Source of the DNA: Actinomadura syzygii | Lineage (GTDB): Bacteria; Actinomycetota; Actinomycetes; Streptosporangiales; Streptosporangiaceae | Assembly (NCBI RefSeq): GCF_008085905.1 | Contig: NZ_VSFF01000008.1 | Coordinates: 372,001-436,000 of the forward strand | DNA: 64,000 bases | Direction: 5' to 3' | Shown: one piece after another, positions 510-7,692 of the stretch | How positions within the stretch are numbered: position 1 is the first letter of the stretch | Layout of the letters: the number at the start of each line of letters is the position of its first letter | The notes under the pieces: generated by a model | Told to the model about the DNA's origin: nothing | The model's input: only the letters and a program-made list of their open reading frames with translations | Databases searched by the model: none | Made by a program: the position numbers and the translations under genes

Positions 510-1337
510 TCACGGCGTCCCGCCGTACGCCGAGTCCGCCTGGACCGTCTCGTCGAGGAACTTGGAGACGAGCGCCGCGACCTCCTCGGGCAGCTGCTCC
601 ATCAGCGGCACCATCCCGCCCTGGATGATCTCCAGCCGGGCCTGCGGCAGCCGCTCGACCAGCCGGGGCACCTGGTGGAAGGCGATCGGGTCGGCGGTGG
701 CGCCGATGCAGAGCACGGGCCCGCGGTAGCCGGTCCGCCCCTCCATCCGGTACGTGCTGATCGCCCGGTGCCCGTCCTCGGCCTGGTCCTCCAGCAGGAG
801 GACGTCCCGCACGTACCGGTTGAGCAGGTCGGGACGGGCGGGCGGGTAGAAGCCGCTGCGGCGCACCCACAGCTCCATGAGGTGGCGGCCGTCGTCCTGG
901 AGCTCGACCATGCTGAGCGGGTGCATCGGCGGCCGCTCGCGGCGGAACTCCTCGTCCACGTAGGGCGTCCCGGACAGGACGAGCCGCCGCAGCCGCTCCG
1001 GCCGCCGGTGCGACATCTCGATCGCGATGATGCCGCCGAGCTGGTGGCCGAGCAGGTCGACGCGGTCGAGCCCCAGCTCCTCCAGGAGGGCGAGCACCGA
1101 GTCGGCGTACCGCTCGATCGAGTGGTCGGGGATGGACTCGGACGCGCCGTAGCCGATGATGTCCGGCGCGATCACCCGGCGCTGCTCCGCGAGGAGGGGC
1201 ATGAGCAGCCGGAACTCGTCCCATGACCGCGGCGTCTGGTGCAGCAGGAGGAGCGGCTCCCCGGCGCCCATCTCGACGTAGTGCATGAGACCGCTGCGCG
1301 TTCGGGCGTAGTGCGGGGAGAACATCGGGGCGATCAT
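510..1337 (-). CDS. alpha/beta-hydrolase fold protein lacking Ser nucleophile and His
   Basis: This encodes 275 residues from ATG 1337, with a GAAGG ribosome site upstream. The alpha/beta-hydrolase fold is clear: LLLLHQTP oxyanion region (29-36), nucleophile elbow near 97-102, acid-loop TADP (D216) and C-terminal helix. The elbow reads G97-H-Q-L-G101, so the usual Ser/Asp/Cys nucleophile is Gln99. The usual catalytic His position in the QGGMVP segment is Met242. The reading frame is intact and codon use is normal, so this is not decay. It probably performs a non-hydrolytic reaction (lyase, decarboxylase or cofactor-free oxygenase type chemistry) or binds ligand. It is co-transcribed with the IclR regulator and divergent from the catabolic operon. 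Function is unassigned. Confidence 0.85.
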   Translation of the reverse strand: MIAPMFSPHYARTRSGLMHYVEMGAGEPLLLLHQTPRSWDEFRLLMPLLAEQRRVIAPDIIGYGASESIPDHSIERYADSVLALLEELGLDRVDLLGHQLGGIIAIEMSHRRPERLRRLVLSGTPYVDEEFRRERPPMHPLSMVELQDDGRHLMELWVRRSGFYPPARPDLLNRYVRDVLLLEDQAEDGHRAISTYRMEGRTGYRGPVLCIGATADPIAFHQVPRLVERLPQARLEIIQGGMVPLMEQLPEEVAALVSKFLDETVQADSAYGGTP

Positions 1338-1544
1338 CGACCTTCGTCCTGTCGTCGGTTTTGTGGAGCTTACTTGGCTTTTGTCCTGTTTCTGTGCCCG
1401 TCGTCGTGGCCGCCACCCTAGGTCGGCCCCGGCCCCGGCGGCTCGCGTGCGCATCCACTGACCGGGATGCGGGGCTGGTCAGGCGTCCGGGCGGTCCCGC
1501 AGCCTATGGACCCGAACAGTCCGGTGGACGCGAAAGGAGGGCCG
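1338..1544. promoter_or_regulatory. Divergent control region of the aromatic catabolism locus
   Basis: This 207-base region separates the leftward hydrolase-iclR unit from the rightward operon and must hold both promoters. An inverted repeat CTGACC-N13-GGTCAG lies at 1458-1482 and is a possible IclR site. The strong ribosome site AAAGGAGG at 1533-1540 fixes the start of the M20-fold gene at 1545. No clear -10/-35 pair was recognised. Confidence 0.4.
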
Positions 1545-2882
1545 ATGGCACCCGAACCGGTGGAGCGGGCAGTGGAGCGAGCTGTGGGGCGGGCATGGGC
1601 GGCGATCGACGCCGACCGCCTCCGGGACCTGACGCTGCGCATGGTGTCGACCCCGAGCCCGACCGGCGACGAGGCGGCGCTCGCCCGCTTCCTCACCGGC
1701 CACCTGGCCGCGGCCGGGCTGGAGGCGGCCTACCAGGAGATCGACGACCGGCAGGGCAACGCGGTCGGGCGGCTGCGCGGCGACGGAACCGGTGCCGACC
1801 TGCTGCTCTACGCGCCCATCGACACGCTCTCGGTCGGCACTGCGGAGGAGGACGTCCCCTACGTCGGCGACGAACTCCGCCCCGACATGCGCACCGAGGG
1901 CGTCCTCGACGGCGACACGATCATCGGCCTCGGCGCCAGCAACCCGAAGGGGCACGCCGCCTGCCTCGTGGAGGCGGCCTCGGCGATCGCCGCGGCGGGC
2001 CTGCCGCTGCGCGGATCGCTCCTGGTCGGGCTGGGCGCCGGGGGGATGCCGACCAACCGCCGTCCGGGCGCGTCCCGGGCGAACGCGGGCCAGGGGAACG
2101 GCTGCTCGTTCATGCTGGAGCAGGGCGTGTGGGCCGACCACGCCATCCTCGCCAAGCCCGGCTGGTCGGTCTCCCACGAGGAGGTCGGGCTCTGCTGGTT
2201 CACCGTCCGGGTGGACGGCACCTACAACTACGTGGGCAGCAGGCAGCGGCTGCCGTACCGCAACGCGGTCGTCGACGCCGCCCGGCTGATCGGCGAGCTG
2301 GAGCGCTGGTTCCCCGAGTACACCGCCCGCAACACGTCCGGCCTGGTCGCCCCGCAGGGGCACATCGCGTCGGTGCGCGGCGGCTGGGAGCGGACGGCCG
2401 CGTTCAGCCCGGCGGTCTGCGAGTTCACCGTGGACCTGCGGATCAGCCCGCGCACCACCCCGGCGGACGCCGCCCGGCAGTTCGCCGAGGGCATGGCGGC
2501 GGCGCTGGCGCGGCTGGGCGACGTGTCCGCGACCTGGGAGATGACGCTCTCCATCCCCGGGAGCCGCACCGACCCGTCGACCTGGATCGTCCGGTCCTGC
2601 GTGCGGGCCTGGGAAGAGGTCACCGGCGAGCCGCACGTCCCGGACGAGGCGGCCCGCACCACCAGCGGCGCGACCGACGGCAACATCCTGCGCAACCGCG
2701 GCCTTCCCACCGCCCGGATCGGCATGCCCCGGCTCACCGCCGCGTCCGGCGCCGAGGTCGACTTCGCGATGGGCATGAACGCGGTCTCCCTGCCGAGCAT
2801 GCTCCGGCTGACCAGGCTGCTGGTCGCCGCGGCGGTGGACGCCTGCACCCGGGACCGCTCCGAGCTGGAGGAACTCACGTGA
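1545..2882 (+). CDS. M20-fold (ArgE/DapE/ACY1-like) protein lacking all zinc ligands
   Basis: This encodes 445 residues; the start is set by AAAGGAGG four bases upstream. The overall M20 layout is visible: N-terminal catalytic domain, an inserted dimerisation domain (about 205-320) and a C-terminal return containing RTTSGATDGNILRNRGLPT. Every zinc-binding position differs from the family. The HxD motif is P91-I-D93, the bridging Asp in GxGxxDxKG is N133 (GLGASNPKG), and the EE pair is replaced by G164-A-G-G167. The later Glu is K204 (ILAKPGW), and the C-terminal His is absent (MGMNAVSLP). It is unlikely to be a conventional metallopeptidase or deacylase. The stop overlaps the next gene (GTGA), so it is made in step with the catabolic enzymes. 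Confidence 0.85.
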   Translation: MAPEPVERAVERAVGRAWAAIDADRLRDLTLRMVSTPSPTGDEAALARFLTGHLAAAGLEAAYQEIDDRQGNAVGRLRGDGTGADLLLYAPIDTLSVGTAEEDVPYVGDELRPDMRTEGVLDGDTIIGLGASNPKGHAACLVEAASAIAAAGLPLRGSLLVGLGAGGMPTNRRPGASRANAGQGNGCSFMLEQGVWADHAILAKPGWSVSHEEVGLCWFTVRVDGTYNYVGSRQRLPYRNAVVDAARLIGELERWFPEYTARNTSGLVAPQGHIASVRGGWERTAAFSPAVCEFTVDLRISPRTTPADAARQFAEGMAAALARLGDVSATWEMTLSIPGSRTDPSTWIVRSCVRAWEEVTGEPHVPDEAARTTSGATDGNILRNRGLPTARIGMPRLTAASGAEVDFAMGMNAVSLPSMLRLTRLLVAAAVDACTRDRSELEELT

Positions 2883-3652
2883 CCCGCTGGTGGCAGGAGG
2901 CGTTCGCCGGTGAGGCGGGCGCCGCGTACGCCTCGTTCGCGCACCGCCAGGACCCGGGGCACCGCCCGGCCGTCCTGGTCATCGACGTCGTCCGGTCGTT
3001 CGTCGGCTCGCCCGGATTGGACCTGGACGCGGCGATCGCCGAATGGCCCACCGCCTGCGGGCCCGCCGCCCACCGGGCGCTCCCGGCGATCGCGGCGGTG
3101 CTGGCCGCCGCCCGCGCCGCCGGGGTGCCGGTCGCGCATCTGCGCCCGTCCGGCCCGGCCGCCCGGCACCTCGGGCCCACGGTGAAGAACGAGCTGGTCG
3201 GCGAGTTCGTCAACGGACGCCCCGGCGCGGTCGACTTCGTGACCGAGTCCGCGCCCCGCGAGGACGAGCTTGTCATCGCCAAGCCCCGGGCGAGCGCGTT
3301 CTTCGACACGCCGCTGGCGACCTGCCTCCGCGCCCTCGGCGTGGACGACCTGATCGTCATGGGCACCACGACGTCCGGATGCGTCCGCGCGTCGGTGGTG
3401 GACGCCTTCTCGCACGGCTTCCGGCCGTTCGTGGTGGAGCAGGCGGTGTTCGACCGCTCCCGCCTGTCCGCCGCCGTGAGCCTCTACGAGATGGACGCCA
3501 AGTACGCCGACGTCGTCCAGCTCGACGACGTCCTCGAACGGCTGGCGCGCACGGCCGGCGGGAAAGCGGCCGCCGGGCGCGCGGCCGGCGAAAGCGCGGC
3601 CGCATTGAGCTTCACAGGAAAGAACGACCCGATTGGAGGTTCCGATAAATGA
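2879..3652 (+). CDS. Isochorismatase-like cysteine hydrolase (amidohydrolase type)
   Basis: This encodes 257 residues from GTG 2879, overlapping the M20 stop by 4 bases. It has the isochorismatase-superfamily triad: Asp in AVLVIDVVRSF, Lys in VIAKPRASAFF and the nucleophile Cys in GTTTSGCVRASVVDA, preceded by the typical cis-peptide threonines. Relatives with Cys are N-carbamoylsarcosine, maleamate and related amide hydrolases, so an amide or N-carbamoyl intermediate is the likely substrate. The C-terminal 25 residues are Ala/Gly-rich and probably disordered. The stop overlaps the ATG of the Rieske gene (ATGA). This is the only hydrolase of the first three in the locus with intact catalytic residues. 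Confidence 0.9.
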   Translation: MTRWWQEAFAGEAGAAYASFAHRQDPGHRPAVLVIDVVRSFVGSPGLDLDAAIAEWPTACGPAAHRALPAIAAVLAAARAAGVPVAHLRPSGPAARHLGPTVKNELVGEFVNGRPGAVDFVTESAPREDELVIAKPRASAFFDTPLATCLRALGVDDLIVMGTTTSGCVRASVVDAFSHGFRPFVVEQAVFDRSRLSAAVSLYEMDAKYADVVQLDDVLERLARTAGGKAAAGRAAGESAAALSFTGKNDPIGGSDK

Positions 3653-4842
3653 CCATCGAACGCGAGGCCGCGAAGTCTCCGGTATGGCAGAACGACACGC
3701 CTGAGGGCCCGGCTCCGGTGGGTGAGGGGCAGGACTGGTCGGCCTGGCCCCTTTATGACAGTTCCGAGCTGGGATTGCGCAATTACTGGTACCCGGTCGG
3801 CTGGGCGGACCGGTTCGGTTCCAAGCCGCAGGCGATCCGCCTTCTGGGCGAGGACTTGGCGCTGGTGCGGGAGGGCGAGGAGATCTACGCCCTCCACGAC
3901 CGGTGCCCGCACCGCGGTGTGCCGCTCTCCCTCGGCCGCCGCGAGTTCCCGGACACGGTGAGCTGCGCCTACCACGGCTGGACCTTCGACCTGCAGAGCG
4001 GCGAACTGCGCGCCGCCCTCACCGACGGGCCGGAGTCGCCGATCTGCGGCAAGCTCAAGGTGCGGACGTACCCGGTGGAGCAGCGGCTCGGCCTGGTCTG
4101 GATCTACGTCGGCGACGGGCCGGTCCCGCCGGTCGAGCGGGACATCCCCGACGAGCTGCTCGACAACGACTTCGTGATGGGCGGCCGCAGCGACGTCCGG
4201 GAAGGCAACTGGCGCTTCGCCGCGGAGAACGGCTTCGACGAGGGGCACGCCAAGTACCTGCACAACACCGCCCTGTGGCGGCTGTTCAAGGTGATGCCCG
4301 CCTGGAACAAGACGCGGATCCAGCAGGTGGGGACGTGGCTCGTCCGCGTCCAGGACGAGGTGCACTGGGAGGGGAACTACCCGGGCCTCGGCGTGTGGAC
4401 GAACAAGCGGTGGTGGAAGCGGATGCCGCTGCCGGACCGTCCGGGCAGGGGCAAGAAGATCAACCCGGTCATCGACTCCCTGGAGATCCCGGGCTTCGTC
4501 TCCATCCGCCTGCCCGGCCTGCTGCGGGTCGCCTACCCCAAGTTCATCCACTACGAGTGGTACGTCCCGGTGGACGAGGACCACGTCCGGTACGTGCAGA
4601 TGATGGTCCGGTTCGAGCGGGGCCTGCCCGCGACGGCGTTCAAGGCCGGGTACCTCGGCGCCATCCGCTGGCTGTTCCACGGCCAGTTCACCAAGCAGGA
4701 CGCCTGGATGGTCGACGTCACCGACGCGCCGCCGGAGCGCCTCTACCGGCCGGACTCCTCGATCACCACCTGGCGCCGCCACCTCGAGAAGTCCAAGCCC
4801 ACCCCCCAGACCCGCCCCCTGCGCAAGAAGGCCGAACGATGA
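3649..4842 (+). CDS. Rieske non-heme iron oxygenase, CarAa-like terminal component
   Basis: This encodes 397 residues; GGAGG lies nine bases before the ATG. The Rieske [2Fe-2S] ligands are C86-P-H88 and C106-A-Y-H109. The mononuclear iron site is in AAENGFDEGHAKYLH (H200, H205, with the bridging Asp197). Segments such as NYWYPV, LLGEDL, YHGWTFDLQSGEL and YVGDG followed by PPVERDIPDELLDNDF resemble the carbazole angular dioxygenase CarAa family more than naphthalene-type dioxygenases, and no small beta subunit gene is present. It should hydroxylate an aromatic or N-heteroaromatic ring using electrons from the reductase at the operon's end. Exact substrate is unknown. Confidence 0.93.
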   Translation: MTIEREAAKSPVWQNDTPEGPAPVGEGQDWSAWPLYDSSELGLRNYWYPVGWADRFGSKPQAIRLLGEDLALVREGEEIYALHDRCPHRGVPLSLGRREFPDTVSCAYHGWTFDLQSGELRAALTDGPESPICGKLKVRTYPVEQRLGLVWIYVGDGPVPPVERDIPDELLDNDFVMGGRSDVREGNWRFAAENGFDEGHAKYLHNTALWRLFKVMPAWNKTRIQQVGTWLVRVQDEVHWEGNYPGLGVWTNKRWWKRMPLPDRPGRGKKINPVIDSLEIPGFVSIRLPGLLRVAYPKFIHYEWYVPVDEDHVRYVQMMVRFERGLPATAFKAGYLGAIRWLFHGQFTKQDAWMVDVTDAPPERLYRPDSSITTWRRHLEKSKPTPQTRPLRKKAER

Positions 4843-4976
4843 AGCTCCGCACCCTCGTCCTCGCGGTCCTGGCGGCCGCGGCGGCCGTCGCCCTGCCGCC
4901 GGTCCGCCGGCGGCTGGCCCGGCTGATCCTGCTCACCACCGGCACGGTCGTCCGCGACCAGCGGCGGATCCGGTGA
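4839..4976 (+). CDS. 45-residue single-pass membrane peptide between Rieske and LigB genes
   Basis: The ATG overlaps the Rieske stop (ATGA at 4839) and the stop overlaps the GTG of the dioxygenase gene (GTGA), so translation is coupled on both sides. The peptide starts MKLRTLVLAVLAAAAAVALP, a membrane helix, then has a basic stretch (PPVRRRLARL), a second short hydrophobic run (ILLTTGTVV) and a basic tail. No similarity is recognised. It could anchor or organise the oxygenase complex, or only maintain coupling. The frame is fully filled with no spare bases, which supports it being a real gene. Confidence 0.6.
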   Translation: MKLRTLVLAVLAAAAAVALPPVRRRLARLILLTTGTVVRDQRRIR

Positions 4977-5914
4977 GCGAGGTCGTCCTGGGCGTCGGCG
5001 CGTCGCACAGCACGCTGATGAACACCCACTGGGACGAGGTCGCCGACCTCCCCGACGCGGTCGCCTTCCGCGACGGCCTCCAGGAGGCCGCCGGGCTGGT
5101 CGCCGCCGCCCGGCCGGACGCCGTGGTGATCATCGGATCGAACCACTTCCGCGGTTTCTTCCTGGACATGATGCCCGCGGTGACGATCGGGGTCGGCGAG
5201 TGCGTCGGCGCGGGGGAGTCGGGCACGCCCGGCGGTCCCCTCCCGGTCGACACCGGCCTCGCCCGGCACCTCGTCGACTCCCTCCTGGAGAACGAGTTCG
5301 ACGCCGCGTTCTCGCTGCGCCTCCAGGTGGACCACGGCATCACGCACAGCCTGCAGTACCTGGTGCCGGACCTGGACGTGCCGATCGTCCCGGTCGTGCT
5401 GAACATGTTCGCGCCGCCGCTGCCGACGCTGCGCCGCTGCCACCGGCTGGGCGAGCGGATCGGGCGGGCGATCGCGTCGGACGGGGAGGCCAAGCGGGTC
5501 GCGGTCATCGCGTCAGGCGGCCTGTCGCACCGGCTGCCGTGGCCGAAGTGGTTCGCGACCTTCTCCGACGACGACCGCTTCCTGGTCGAGGCGTGGCTCA
5601 ACGGGCGCGCCTCCTGGAGCGAGTACGAGGTGCGCCGCCGTCAGATCATCCGGGCCGCCGCGCCCGACATCAACTCCGACTTCGACCGGCGTTTCCTCGA
5701 CATGCTCGCCGACGGCGGGCTCGGGGAGATCCTCGGCTACGACAACCACCGGATCGAGAGCGAGGCCGGCAACGGCGGGCAGGAGATCCGGTCCTGGGTG
5801 GCGATGGCGGCGGCCGTCGGCCCCGCGCGAGGACGAACCCTCGCATACGCACCGATTCCGCAGTGGCTCACCGGCATGGGTGTGGCCGTTCTCTCCGTGG
5901 GAGGCGACCGATGA
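4973..5914 (+). CDS. LigB/CarBb-type extradiol ring-cleavage dioxygenase catalytic subunit
   Basis: This encodes 313 residues from GTG 4973. It belongs to the class III extradiol dioxygenases (LigB, MhpB, CarBb): iron-ligand region GASHSTLMNTHW (His12), IIGSNHF (His58), the catalytic His region VDHGITHSLQYLVP and the closing block VIASGGLSHRLPWP. It should open a catechol-like product of the Rieske oxygenase to a meta-cleavage product. No separate LigA/CarBa-like small subunit was found next to it, unlike the classical carbazole genes; the 45-residue neighbour is not similar to LigA. The stop overlaps the next ATG (ATGA). Confidence 0.9.
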   Translation: MSEVVLGVGASHSTLMNTHWDEVADLPDAVAFRDGLQEAAGLVAAARPDAVVIIGSNHFRGFFLDMMPAVTIGVGECVGAGESGTPGGPLPVDTGLARHLVDSLLENEFDAAFSLRLQVDHGITHSLQYLVPDLDVPIVPVVLNMFAPPLPTLRRCHRLGERIGRAIASDGEAKRVAVIASGGLSHRLPWPKWFATFSDDDRFLVEAWLNGRASWSEYEVRRRQIIRAAAPDINSDFDRRFLDMLADGGLGEILGYDNHRIESEAGNGGQEIRSWVAMAAAVGPARGRTLAYAPIPQWLTGMGVAVLSVGGDR

Positions 5915-6762
5915 CGTTCTGGACCGACCTGACAGGGGTCCCCTTCAGCCTCGACTACGTCGACGCCGGAGGCGTGCGGACCCGCGCGCTGCGCGCCGGG
6001 GAGGGGGAGCCGGTCGTCTTCCTGCACGGGACGAGCGGCCACCTTGAGGCGTTCGTCCGGAACTTCCCGGCGCACGCGGAGCACTTCAGCTGCCACGCCA
6101 TCGACATGCTCGGCCACGGCTATACGCAGGGCATCGACGCGCCGTACCGGATCGCCCGCTACGTCGAGCACCTGCTCGCCTACCTCGACGCGATCGGCGC
6201 CGAACGGGCGCACCTGGTCGGCGAGTCGCTCGGCGGCTGGGTCGCGGGCAGGCTCGCCGCCGACCACCCGGACCGCGTGGCCCGCCTCACCCTGGTCGCG
6301 CCCGGCGGCACGGTGGCCAACCCGGCGGTGATGGAACGCATCAAGACCAGCACCCGCGCGGCGGTGGAGAGCGACGACGCCGGCCTCACGCGCAAGCGCC
6401 TCGAACTGCTCATGCACAACCCGGCCAAGGACGTCACCGACGAACTGGTCGCGGTGCGGCACGACGTCTACCACCGTCCCGAGTTCAAGGCCGGGCTGGA
6501 CAACCTCCTCTGCCTCCAGGAGATGGAGAACCGGCGCCCCGACCTGCTCACCGAGGAGCAGCTCGGACGCATCACCGCGCCGACGCTGATCGTGTGGGGC
6601 GCCGAGAACCCGTTCGGCGAGATCCCCGAGGCCGAGCGGATGCACGGGGCGATCCCCGGATCCCGGCTGGAGGTCTTCCCCAAGTGCGGGCACTGGCCGC
6701 AGCACGAGCACTCCGACCGCTTCAACGCGCTGAACATCGAGTTCCTGAGCGGGCGGGACTGA
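5911..6762 (+). CDS. Alpha/beta hydrolase, probable meta-cleavage product hydrolase
   Basis: This encodes 283 residues from ATG 5911, inside the previous stop. The nucleophile elbow is G104-E-S106-L-G, the oxyanion motif HGTSG lies at 39-43, and the catalytic His sits in CGHWPQHE. The usual acid motif WGxxD reads WGAENPF, so Asp may be replaced by Asn or the neighbouring Glu may serve. It follows the extradiol dioxygenase directly, matching the CarC/MhpC/BphD role of C-C bond hydrolysis of the ring-opened product. Unlike the hydrolase at 510-1337, its Ser and His are intact. Confidence 0.9.
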   Translation: MTFWTDLTGVPFSLDYVDAGGVRTRALRAGEGEPVVFLHGTSGHLEAFVRNFPAHAEHFSCHAIDMLGHGYTQGIDAPYRIARYVEHLLAYLDAIGAERAHLVGESLGGWVAGRLAADHPDRVARLTLVAPGGTVANPAVMERIKTSTRAAVESDDAGLTRKRLELLMHNPAKDVTDELVAVRHDVYHRPEFKAGLDNLLCLQEMENRRPDLLTEEQLGRITAPTLIVWGAENPFGEIPEAERMHGAIPGSRLEVFPKCGHWPQHEHSDRFNALNIEFLSGRD

Positions 6763-6765
6763 CCG

Positions 6766-7692
6766 ATGGAGGTCCTGGTCAAACAGGCCACCTGGGAGGC
6801 CGATGGCGTGCTGTCCCTGTCGCTCGTCCACCCGGAGGCGTCCGAACTGCCCGCCTGGACTCCGGGCGCGCACCTCGATCTGCACCTCGGGGACCGCGTC
6901 CGGCAGTACTCGCTCTGCGGCGACCCCGCGGACCAGGGGCGCTACCGGGTCGCGGTCCTGCGCGCGCCCGACAGCCGGGGCGGCTCGGAGTACGTGCACG
7001 AGCGGCTGCGGCCGGGGCAGCCGCTGCGGATAGACGGGCCGCGGAACCACTTCACCCTGGAGCCGTCGCCGCGCTACCTGTTCGTCGCGGGCGGCATCGG
7101 CATCACCCCTCTGCTGCCGATGCTGCGCCAGGCGGCGGCCGAGGGGCGGGACTGGCGGCTCGCCTACGGCGGCCGCAGCCTGCGGTCCATGGCCTTCCTG
7201 GACGAGTTGGCCGGGTACGGGGAGCGGGTCGAGTTCGTCCCGCAGGACGAGCGCGGCCCGCTCGACCTGGACGCGCTCCTCGGCGCGCCGCTGTCCGACA
7301 CCCTGGTCTACTGCTGCGGTCCCGAGCCGCTGCTCGCGGCCGTCGAGGAGCGCTGCGCGGACTGGCCGCCGGGCTCCCTGCGGCTGGAGCGGTTCGCGGC
7401 CAAGCCGCAGGACTTCGGCCCCGACGAGCCTTTCGAGGTCGTCTGCCAGCGCTCCGACGTGACCGTCCGCGTCGGGCCCGGAACGTCCATCGTGGACGCG
7501 CTGGAGGACGCGGACATCTGGGTGCCCAGCGCGTGCCGAGAGGGAATCTGCGGAACCTGCGAGACCCGGGTCATCGACGGGGAGCCGGACCACCGCGACT
7601 CGCTGCTCTCCGAGGGCGGGCAGGAGGCGGACAAGATCATGCTGCCGTGCGTCTCCCGCTCCCTGACCCCGCGCCTGGTCCTGGACCTCTGA
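6766..7692 (+). CDS. Phthalate dioxygenase reductase-type flavin/[2Fe-2S] oxidoreductase
   Basis: This encodes 308 residues beginning four bases after the hydrolase stop. Domain order is FMN-binding ferredoxin-reductase barrel (RQYSLCG), NAD-binding lobe (VAGGIGITPLLPMLR, YCCGPEPLL) and C-terminal plant-type ferredoxin with CREGICGTC and a distal Cys in MLPCVSRS. This is the order of phthalate dioxygenase reductase and VanB. It is the dedicated electron donor for the Rieske oxygenase, which explains the absence of a separate ferredoxin gene. It ends the operon; the next gene is convergent. Confidence 0.94.
   Translation: MEVLVKQATWEADGVLSLSLVHPEASELPAWTPGAHLDLHLGDRVRQYSLCGDPADQGRYRVAVLRAPDSRGGSEYVHERLRPGQPLRIDGPRNHFTLEPSPRYLFVAGGIGITPLLPMLRQAAAEGRDWRLAYGGRSLRSMAFLDELAGYGERVEFVPQDERGPLDLDALLGAPLSDTLVYCCGPEPLLAAVEERCADWPPGSLRLERFAAKPQDFGPDEPFEVVCQRSDVTVRVGPGTSIVDALEDADIWVPSACREGICGTCETRVIDGEPDHRDSLLSEGGQEADKIMLPCVSRSLTPRLVLDL

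Follow-up and report, generated by a model that had tools for sequence, protein, structure and literature searches.

A clade of M20-fold proteins without metal ligands carries lysine at a former ligand position and occurs with Rieske and LigB genes in actinomycetes and Cupriavidus

Metallohydrolases of the M20 type bind their metals through a ligand set of His / Asp / Glu / Asp-Glu / His. Here we describe an M20-fold protein that has none of these ligands, encoded in a 64,000-nucleotide stretch of the Actinomadura syzygii genome (the window: RefSeq assembly GCF_008085905.1, contig NZ_VSFF01000008.1, positions 372,001 to 436,000 of the forward strand), along with the divergently encoded alpha/beta-hydrolase-fold protein abh, which has no serine at its nucleophile position. 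The nearest characterized relative of the M20-fold protein is 5-nitroanthranilate aminohydrolase (5NAA-A), which hydrolytically removes NH2 from an aromatic ring (PMC4539516). 5NAA-A is listed among enzymes thought to act by nucleophilic aromatic substitution (SNAr-type) via metal-hydroxide intermediates or by aryl-ester hydrolysis (PMC11903332). In the presumed mechanism of 5NAA-A, the ring carbon that bears the amine is attacked by a hydroxide bound to the metal. A second point of comparison is the quinoline pathway, which runs from 2-hydroxyquinoline through 2,8-dihydroxyquinoline to 8-hydroxycoumarin and then 2,3-dihydroxyphenylpropionate, with NH4+ released between 2,8-dihydroxyquinoline and 8-hydroxycoumarin (PMC9029321). 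The old yellow enzyme XenA has been placed at 8-hydroxycoumarin (PMC5519977), and a dioxygenase, 'hdo', has been proposed for the nitrogen-removing step (PMC11945285). Apart from the 'hdo' proposal, we found no gene assigned to this step in the quinoline and coumarin literature searched, which covered only a minority of subscription papers and is no proof of absence.

The M20-fold protein (445 amino acids) is encoded by an open frame at positions 1545 to 2882 of the forward strand, with an alternative GTG start at 1584. It has no match in Pfam, and its NCBIfam matches are exclusively of M20 type and far below cut-off (best 59 versus 218 bits). A single-sequence search of the PDB (E up to 0.001) returned 5NAA-A as the only match, with an E value of 2e-21. 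Structure comparison of the AlphaFold model (pLDDT 90.9) using VIA-align likewise placed 5NAA-A at the top (407 residues, Z 41.9, root-mean-square deviation 2.5), with DapE/ArgE-type enzymes trailing at Z 32-37. At the level of the predicted structure, the M20 two-domain fold is not in doubt.

Within this fold, the positions of the metal ligands are occupied by Pro91, Asn133, Gly167 (in a GAGG motif, residues 164-167) and Lys204, and the C-terminal His is missing. These four residues are invariant in the first 32 full-length orthologues, and in 35 of 35 sequences once two more from actinobacteria and one from Cupriavidus are added. A further 31 sequences, comprising 30 of the 40 places outside the window genome found in the order search described below and one located beside an abh gene, agree fully at the twelve positions checked. 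After removal of two repeats (L041 is the same as L075, and L025 from Actinomadura sp. K4S16 the same as L100 from genome G673), Pro91, Asn133, Gly167 and Lys204 are found in all 64 distinct sequences, at pairwise identities down to about 30%, and a His occurs between residues 393 and 413 in only one of the 64. The sequences were gathered by similarity to the window protein, and the six peptide patterns used to search for loci contain none of the four residues. These counts omit L038, L042, L043 and L044, whose M20 frames are interrupted; their pieces carry the same motifs wherever covered. Across the 35 sequences, D93, N133, K135, K204, D378, R383 and R391 are all invariant. A literature search on metal-less M20 pseudoenzymes gave no match.

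Seven relatives, including 5NAA-A, retain His, Asn, Glu and Glu at these four positions (7/7), and in a tree they lie opposite the 35 Pro/Asn/Gly/Lys sequences across a branch with support of 100/99. Because Asn at the bridging-Asp position and the absence of the C-terminal His are common to these seven relatives as well, only three of the five apparent losses are specific to the metal-free clade, namely the His replaced by Pro91 and the two Glu replaced by Gly167 and Lys204. A sequence-only reading of this DNA had described five lost zinc ligands; all five are indeed absent here, with the qualification that two were already missing in relatives that keep the other three. Among the seven, metal binding is shown only for 5NAA-A, and the assignment of its His/Glu/Glu ligands comes from alignment to M20 enzymes. 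Asp93, Asn133, Lys135, Asp198 and Asp378 are kept in both groups. We also considered, and set aside, an alternative alignment that would place catalytic residues elsewhere: neither the alignment of the LYAPIDT motif to NSHLDT nor the whole-length structural match gives any sign of a shifted site.

Ligand-keeping relatives also appear in related gene clusters. The Phytohabitans and Micromonospora loci have a second M20 gene, with His/Asn/Glu/Glu, next to molybdenum-hydroxylase genes (L032:3388-4650 and L011:4274-5548, encoding proteins 47 and 45% identical to 5NAA-A), so that both kinds of M20 protein sit in one cluster; no counterpart turned up in the window's genome when it was searched with the metal-free protein. 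A third group, which keeps the lid His, follows a relative of luciferase-like monooxygenases in four other actinobacterial genomes (L050, L051, L052 and L053), and these loci possibly serve another aromatic or heterocycle pathway.

The alpha/beta-hydrolase-fold protein abh (275 amino acids; positions 510 to 1337, reverse strand) matches Pfam PF00561 with 81 bits, and its predicted structure (pLDDT 87.7) resembles enol-lactonase and esterases with a Z of 28, which confirms the fold. Its reading frame confirms Gln99 in the nucleophile elbow (GHQLG) and Met242 at the position usually held by His. Among 46 distinct homologues, position 99 is His in 43, Gln in three and Ser in none, and position 242 varies among M, T, G, L, V, A, E and D, with His in a single sequence (the L011 row is frame-shifted before this position). 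Invariant residues are His33, Gln34, Glu41, Asp59, His98, His152, Arg160, Arg174, His190 and Asp216. As an internal control, two other alpha/beta-hydrolase families from the same loci have Ser in 116 of 116 rows (113 scored by motif and three read; rows not de-duplicated). The abh proteins are thus a family lacking a serine nucleophile, in which His99 is the norm and the window copy has the rarer Gln. Gln99, which the sequence-only reading had proposed to follow across homologues, is therefore a minority state, while the non-zinc residues of the M20 site, named with it, are fixed. Genes of the abh family (GHHTGG) also lie near molybdenum-hydroxylase subunits with no M20 gene in the stretch examined (L086:7991 and L087:7427); the family thus has settings of its own.

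We estimated ratios of nonsynonymous to synonymous substitution (dN/dS) by the Nei-Gojobori method. Compared with the Phytohabitans locus, these are 0.22 for abh and 0.25 for M20, with five other operon genes at 0.20-0.25; other pairs gave 0.27 for abh and 0.38 and 0.22 for M20. By these estimates, both genes are under purifying selection like their operon neighbors. In a survey of 345 genomes from the order, using E values of at most 1e-90 for M20 and 1e-40 for abh, we found M20 in 39 genomes, abh in 28 and both in 19 (Fisher one-sided 3e-14, uncorrected for genome kinship), and in 17 of these 19 the two genes lie within 20 kb on one contig. In an even sample of the phylum (396 genomes), three genomes have M20 orthologues, counting that of the window, and four have abh, including all three; four further genomes have only ligand-keeping M20 relatives. 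Nine of the 28 abh genomes lack M20 at the survey thresholds. One of these, G551, does carry it on inspection (L094), and no M20 gene was found in the other eight abh stretches examined (L086-L093). Overall, abh and M20 co-occur, and neither needs the other. The notion of a simultaneous loss in two unrelated folds does not survive this comparison: each loss is common to its own family, and each family is also found without the other. We accordingly rejected a single coupled event, since each family carries its own loss without its partner.

In most loci the metal-free M20 clade is linked to a Rieske oxygenase with the PF11723 domain, a LigB dioxygenase and an amide or ester hydrolase. Across 39 M20 loci, counted as lower bounds given contig ends and stretch borders, we found Rieske genes in 36, LigB in 38, an MhpC-like hydrolase in 35, abh in 23 and the large subunit of a molybdenum hydroxylase in 13 (L046 was counted without the neighboring stretch L045, which carries abh and a GGGPG-type gene). 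Of the 39 loci, 36 have a second hydrolase or amidase: a GGGPG-type alpha/beta-hydrolase in 31, an isochorismatase-like protein in five and an AS amidase in two. In a second set of 31 loci, which shares two with the first, Rieske genes occur in 28 and LigB in 29 (counted by eye from the table). Among the mapped genes, the usual neighbor of M20 is Rieske or LigB, and gene order differs from locus to locus. One locus (L058) additionally has genes related to those for hydratase, aldolase and acetaldehyde dehydrogenase, named in part by similarity, as in MhpD/E/F-type pathways. The fused molybdenum hydroxylase of another (L026) is nearest to 4-hydroxybenzoyl-CoA reductase, followed by quinoline 2-oxidoreductase.

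The most specific context comes from plasmid p1 of Cupriavidus necator C39, where the order is Rieske oxygenase, reductase, metal-free M20 and AS amidase. This Rieske protein is by sequence a full-length 2-oxo-1,2-dihydroquinoline 8-monooxygenase (OMO; 863 bits, residues 1-448 on 1-445 of PDB 1z01). On the far side of the point where the circular record starts are genes for a 3-carboxyethylcatechol 2,3-dioxygenase (566 bits versus a cut-off of 467) and a 2-keto-4-pentenoate hydratase, both above their NCBIfam cut-offs. They lie about 3.7 and 4.7 kb away from OMO and about 6 and 7 kb away from M20, and beyond them are relatives of acetaldehyde dehydrogenase and aldolase. As judged from these similarities, the gene set fits the 8-hydroxycoumarin route of quinoline degradation.

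We tentatively propose that the M20-fold protein catalyzes cleavage of the aryl C-N bond in a hydroxylated N-heteroaromatic compound, without metal and by means of Lys204, giving a catechol for LigB; we give this somewhat less than an even chance. Of the two kinds of role that the sequence-only reading had suggested, new chemistry or ligand binding, the gene context favors catalysis for this protein. In such a reaction, the Rieske enzyme would first put a hydroxyl next to the nitrogen, and with the hydroxyl ortho to nitrogen the ring could tautomerize and react as a keto-imine, which would be open to attack by lysine without a metal. Lys204, at the former position of a ligand Glu, would act as the nucleophile (transimination) or as acid/base, helped by the retained Asp93, Asn133, Lys135 and Asp378. 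The M20-fold protein would thereby remove the ring nitrogen ahead of ring cleavage, LigB would cleave the resulting catechol, and the amidase or isochorismatase-like neighbor could open the lactam before or after C-N cleavage. In Cupriavidus, the substrate would be 8-hydroxy-2-oxo-1,2-dihydroquinoline or its lactam-opened o-aminophenol form. In a variant of this mechanism, angular dioxygenation would give a hemiaminal that the M20-fold protein simply collapses. The abh protein would be another member of this pathway, working without serine, and would probably serve as a lyase, an isomerase or a binding protein through its invariant His and Arg residues. The broadest form of the proposal is that the whole M20 clade swapped its catalytic metal for lysine and performs metal-free aryl C-N cleavage, through a lysine Schiff base or hemiaminal collapse, and so supplies the step at which actinomycetes and Cupriavidus remove nitrogen in quinoline-type degradation, working in some loci with the histidine-for-serine alpha/beta-hydrolase-fold protein; taken as a whole, we consider this doubtful.

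Several observations weigh against C-N cleavage by the M20-fold protein or against its wider version. Lys204 is put in the putative pocket by alignment, and the amidase or another enzyme could remove the nitrogen instead. The examined stretches contain no Rieske gene in three of the 39 M20 loci (L043, L044 and L059) and no molybdenum hydroxylase in 26, and 20 of the 39 M20 genomes have no abh match at the survey threshold. In Cupriavidus, abh was not found in the stretches examined, so that it is not required. An old-yellow-enzyme relative and weakly matching molybdenum-hydroxylase subunits lie 22-26 kb from the amidase on its other side, with transport and other unrelated-looking genes in between, and may lie outside the pathway set. 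A plasmid search of Pseudomonadota for OMO together with M20 returned this one Cupriavidus record only. Finally, the Rieske protein of the window is only about 29% identical to Cupriavidus OMO and is nearer to carbazole dioxygenase; the substrate in the window may therefore not be quinoline.

Other explanations account for parts of the same evidence. With all three clade-specific ligands gone and Rieske or LigB next to it in most loci, the M20-fold protein could be a non-catalytic partner of one of these enzymes, such as a substrate channel, scaffold or stabilizing subunit, with its fold and pocket kept for binding. We think this rather unlikely: the seven residues invariant in 35 of 35 sequences go beyond the apparent needs of a scaffold, the Cupriavidus M20 gene is not adjacent to its LigB-type gene, and gene order varies between loci. 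The variable type of hydrolase or amidase (GGGPG-type, isochorismatase-like or AS amidase, depending on the locus) could instead mean that the M20-fold protein covers one hydrolytic step, and it might be an enzyme of a step other than C-N cleavage, for example hydrolysis of a lactone or lactam, or hydration or isomerization of a coumarin, a cinnamate or a meta-cleavage product. This too is unlikely, as 36 of the 39 loci already carry a further hydrolase or amidase, and the nearest characterized relative deaminates an aromatic ring. Both proteins lack residues that their parent families would predict, as would be the case for decaying or mis-sequenced genes. However, all 64 M20 sequences agree and all 46 abh sequences lack Ser, so the deviations are not those of a single copy among homologues that keep Ser/His and zinc ligands. 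Moreover, both frames are open and intact, dN/dS is as in neighboring genes, and the two genes co-occur. We therefore rejected decay, in agreement with the sequence-only reading, and also artifact, as very improbable. If the M20-fold protein is active, its metal-free clade, with a metallohydrolase fold and an invariant lysine in place of a ligand, would represent a new way of achieving catalysis. The context points to a concrete reaction, the release of ring nitrogen between 2-oxo-8-hydroxyquinoline and a catechol, and if this is true, a gap in N-heterocycle degradation becomes directly testable.

The window operon has the arrangement that the sequence-only reading had described, with abh and M20 flanking the divergent region of a Rieske/LigB operon. 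The intergenic region between them spans 207 bases (1338 to 1544), and a consensus scan found no sigma-70-like consensus there. Following M20 on the forward strand are genes for an isochorismatase-like (N-carbamoylsarcosine amidohydrolase-like) amidohydrolase (2879 to 3652), a Rieske oxygenase with a PF11723 C-terminal domain of the carbazole 1,9a-dioxygenase / 2-oxoquinoline 8-monooxygenase type (3649 to 4842), a LigB / MhpB-like class III extradiol dioxygenase (4973 to 5914), an MhpC/HsaD-like meta-cleavage-product hydrolase that retains the GESLGG elbow and a C-terminal His (5911 to 6762), and a flavin/2Fe-2S reductase (6766 to 7692) that probably serves the Rieske oxygenase. The Rieske protein is nearest to carbazole 1,9a-dioxygenase (E 6e-48, about 166 bits), followed by 2-oxoquinoline 8-monooxygenase (2e-30, 109 bits), and the LigB protein is nearest to 2,3-dihydroxyphenylpropionate/2,3-dihydroxycinnamate 1,2-dioxygenase (190 bits; family cut-off 291). 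A short forward-strand reading frame for 45 amino acids with a hydrophobic N-terminus (4839 to 4976) overlaps the Rieske stop and the LigB start. Its TGTVVR motif recurs in short frames of L011, L012 and L084, that is, in at least three of 70 loci, a lower bound because the scan skipped frames within stop-free stretches of at least 200 codons, the window's own included. On the reverse strand beyond abh, positions 1 to 507 encode the N-terminal part of an IclR-type regulator (PcaR/PcaU/PobR-like; gene call L047 9671-10435, start uncertain) that scores 135 bits with NCBIfam TIGR02431, below the family cut-off. Upstream of the window are the remainder of this gene and molybdenum-hydroxylase genes. 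The upstream stretch L047:2383-5927 also encodes iron-containing alcohol dehydrogenase, type II asparaginase-like and MmgE/PrpD-like proteins, which have counterparts in the Phytohabitans locus and may serve later pathway steps or nitrogen handling.

The window M20 is closest to copies from Micromonosporaceae (88, 79 and 78% identity), and other Actinomadura copies in the order search reach only 44-60%; this pattern suggests that the operon was acquired by horizontal transfer. Contig C11 of the window's genome holds another M20/Rieske/LigB/MhpC set, which has diverged from the first (M20 60%, abh 42%) and in which abh (L045 8675-9463) and M20 (L046 2449-3798) are about 13 kb apart.

Compared with known systems, the M20-fold protein most resembles 5NAA-A, with which it shares the whole fold (PDB 5k8m-5k8p), Asn at the bridging-Asp position, the missing C-terminal His, Tyr at the lid position (229) and a setting in aromatic-amine catabolism. 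The two are about 25% identical and differ at Pro91, Gly167 and Lys204, where 5NAA-A has His, Glu and Glu; titles of the 5NAA-A PDB entries name Mn or Zn. M20 metallopeptidases and deacylases such as DapE, ArgE and carboxypeptidase G2 share the two-domain fold (Z about 29-37), but none of their five ligand positions is kept in the window protein. Similarly, abh resembles the alpha/beta-hydrolases of catechol pathways (enol-lactonase 2xua, CarC, BphD and DxnB2) in fold (Z 27-28) and catabolic setting, and departs from them in having His or Gln in place of the Ser nucleophile and no conserved catalytic His. At the level of the pathway, the M20 loci recall the 8-hydroxycoumarin route of quinoline, with its 2-oxoquinoline 8-monooxygenase, XenA and 2,3-dihydroxyphenylpropionate cleavage: they share its Rieske family and MhpB/MhpC-type enzymes, some have molybdenum hydroxylases, and in Cupriavidus the M20 gene lies beside a 2-oxoquinoline 8-monooxygenase gene. 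They differ from that route as published, which in the accessible text names no M20-fold protein, and the substrate of the window operon is putative.

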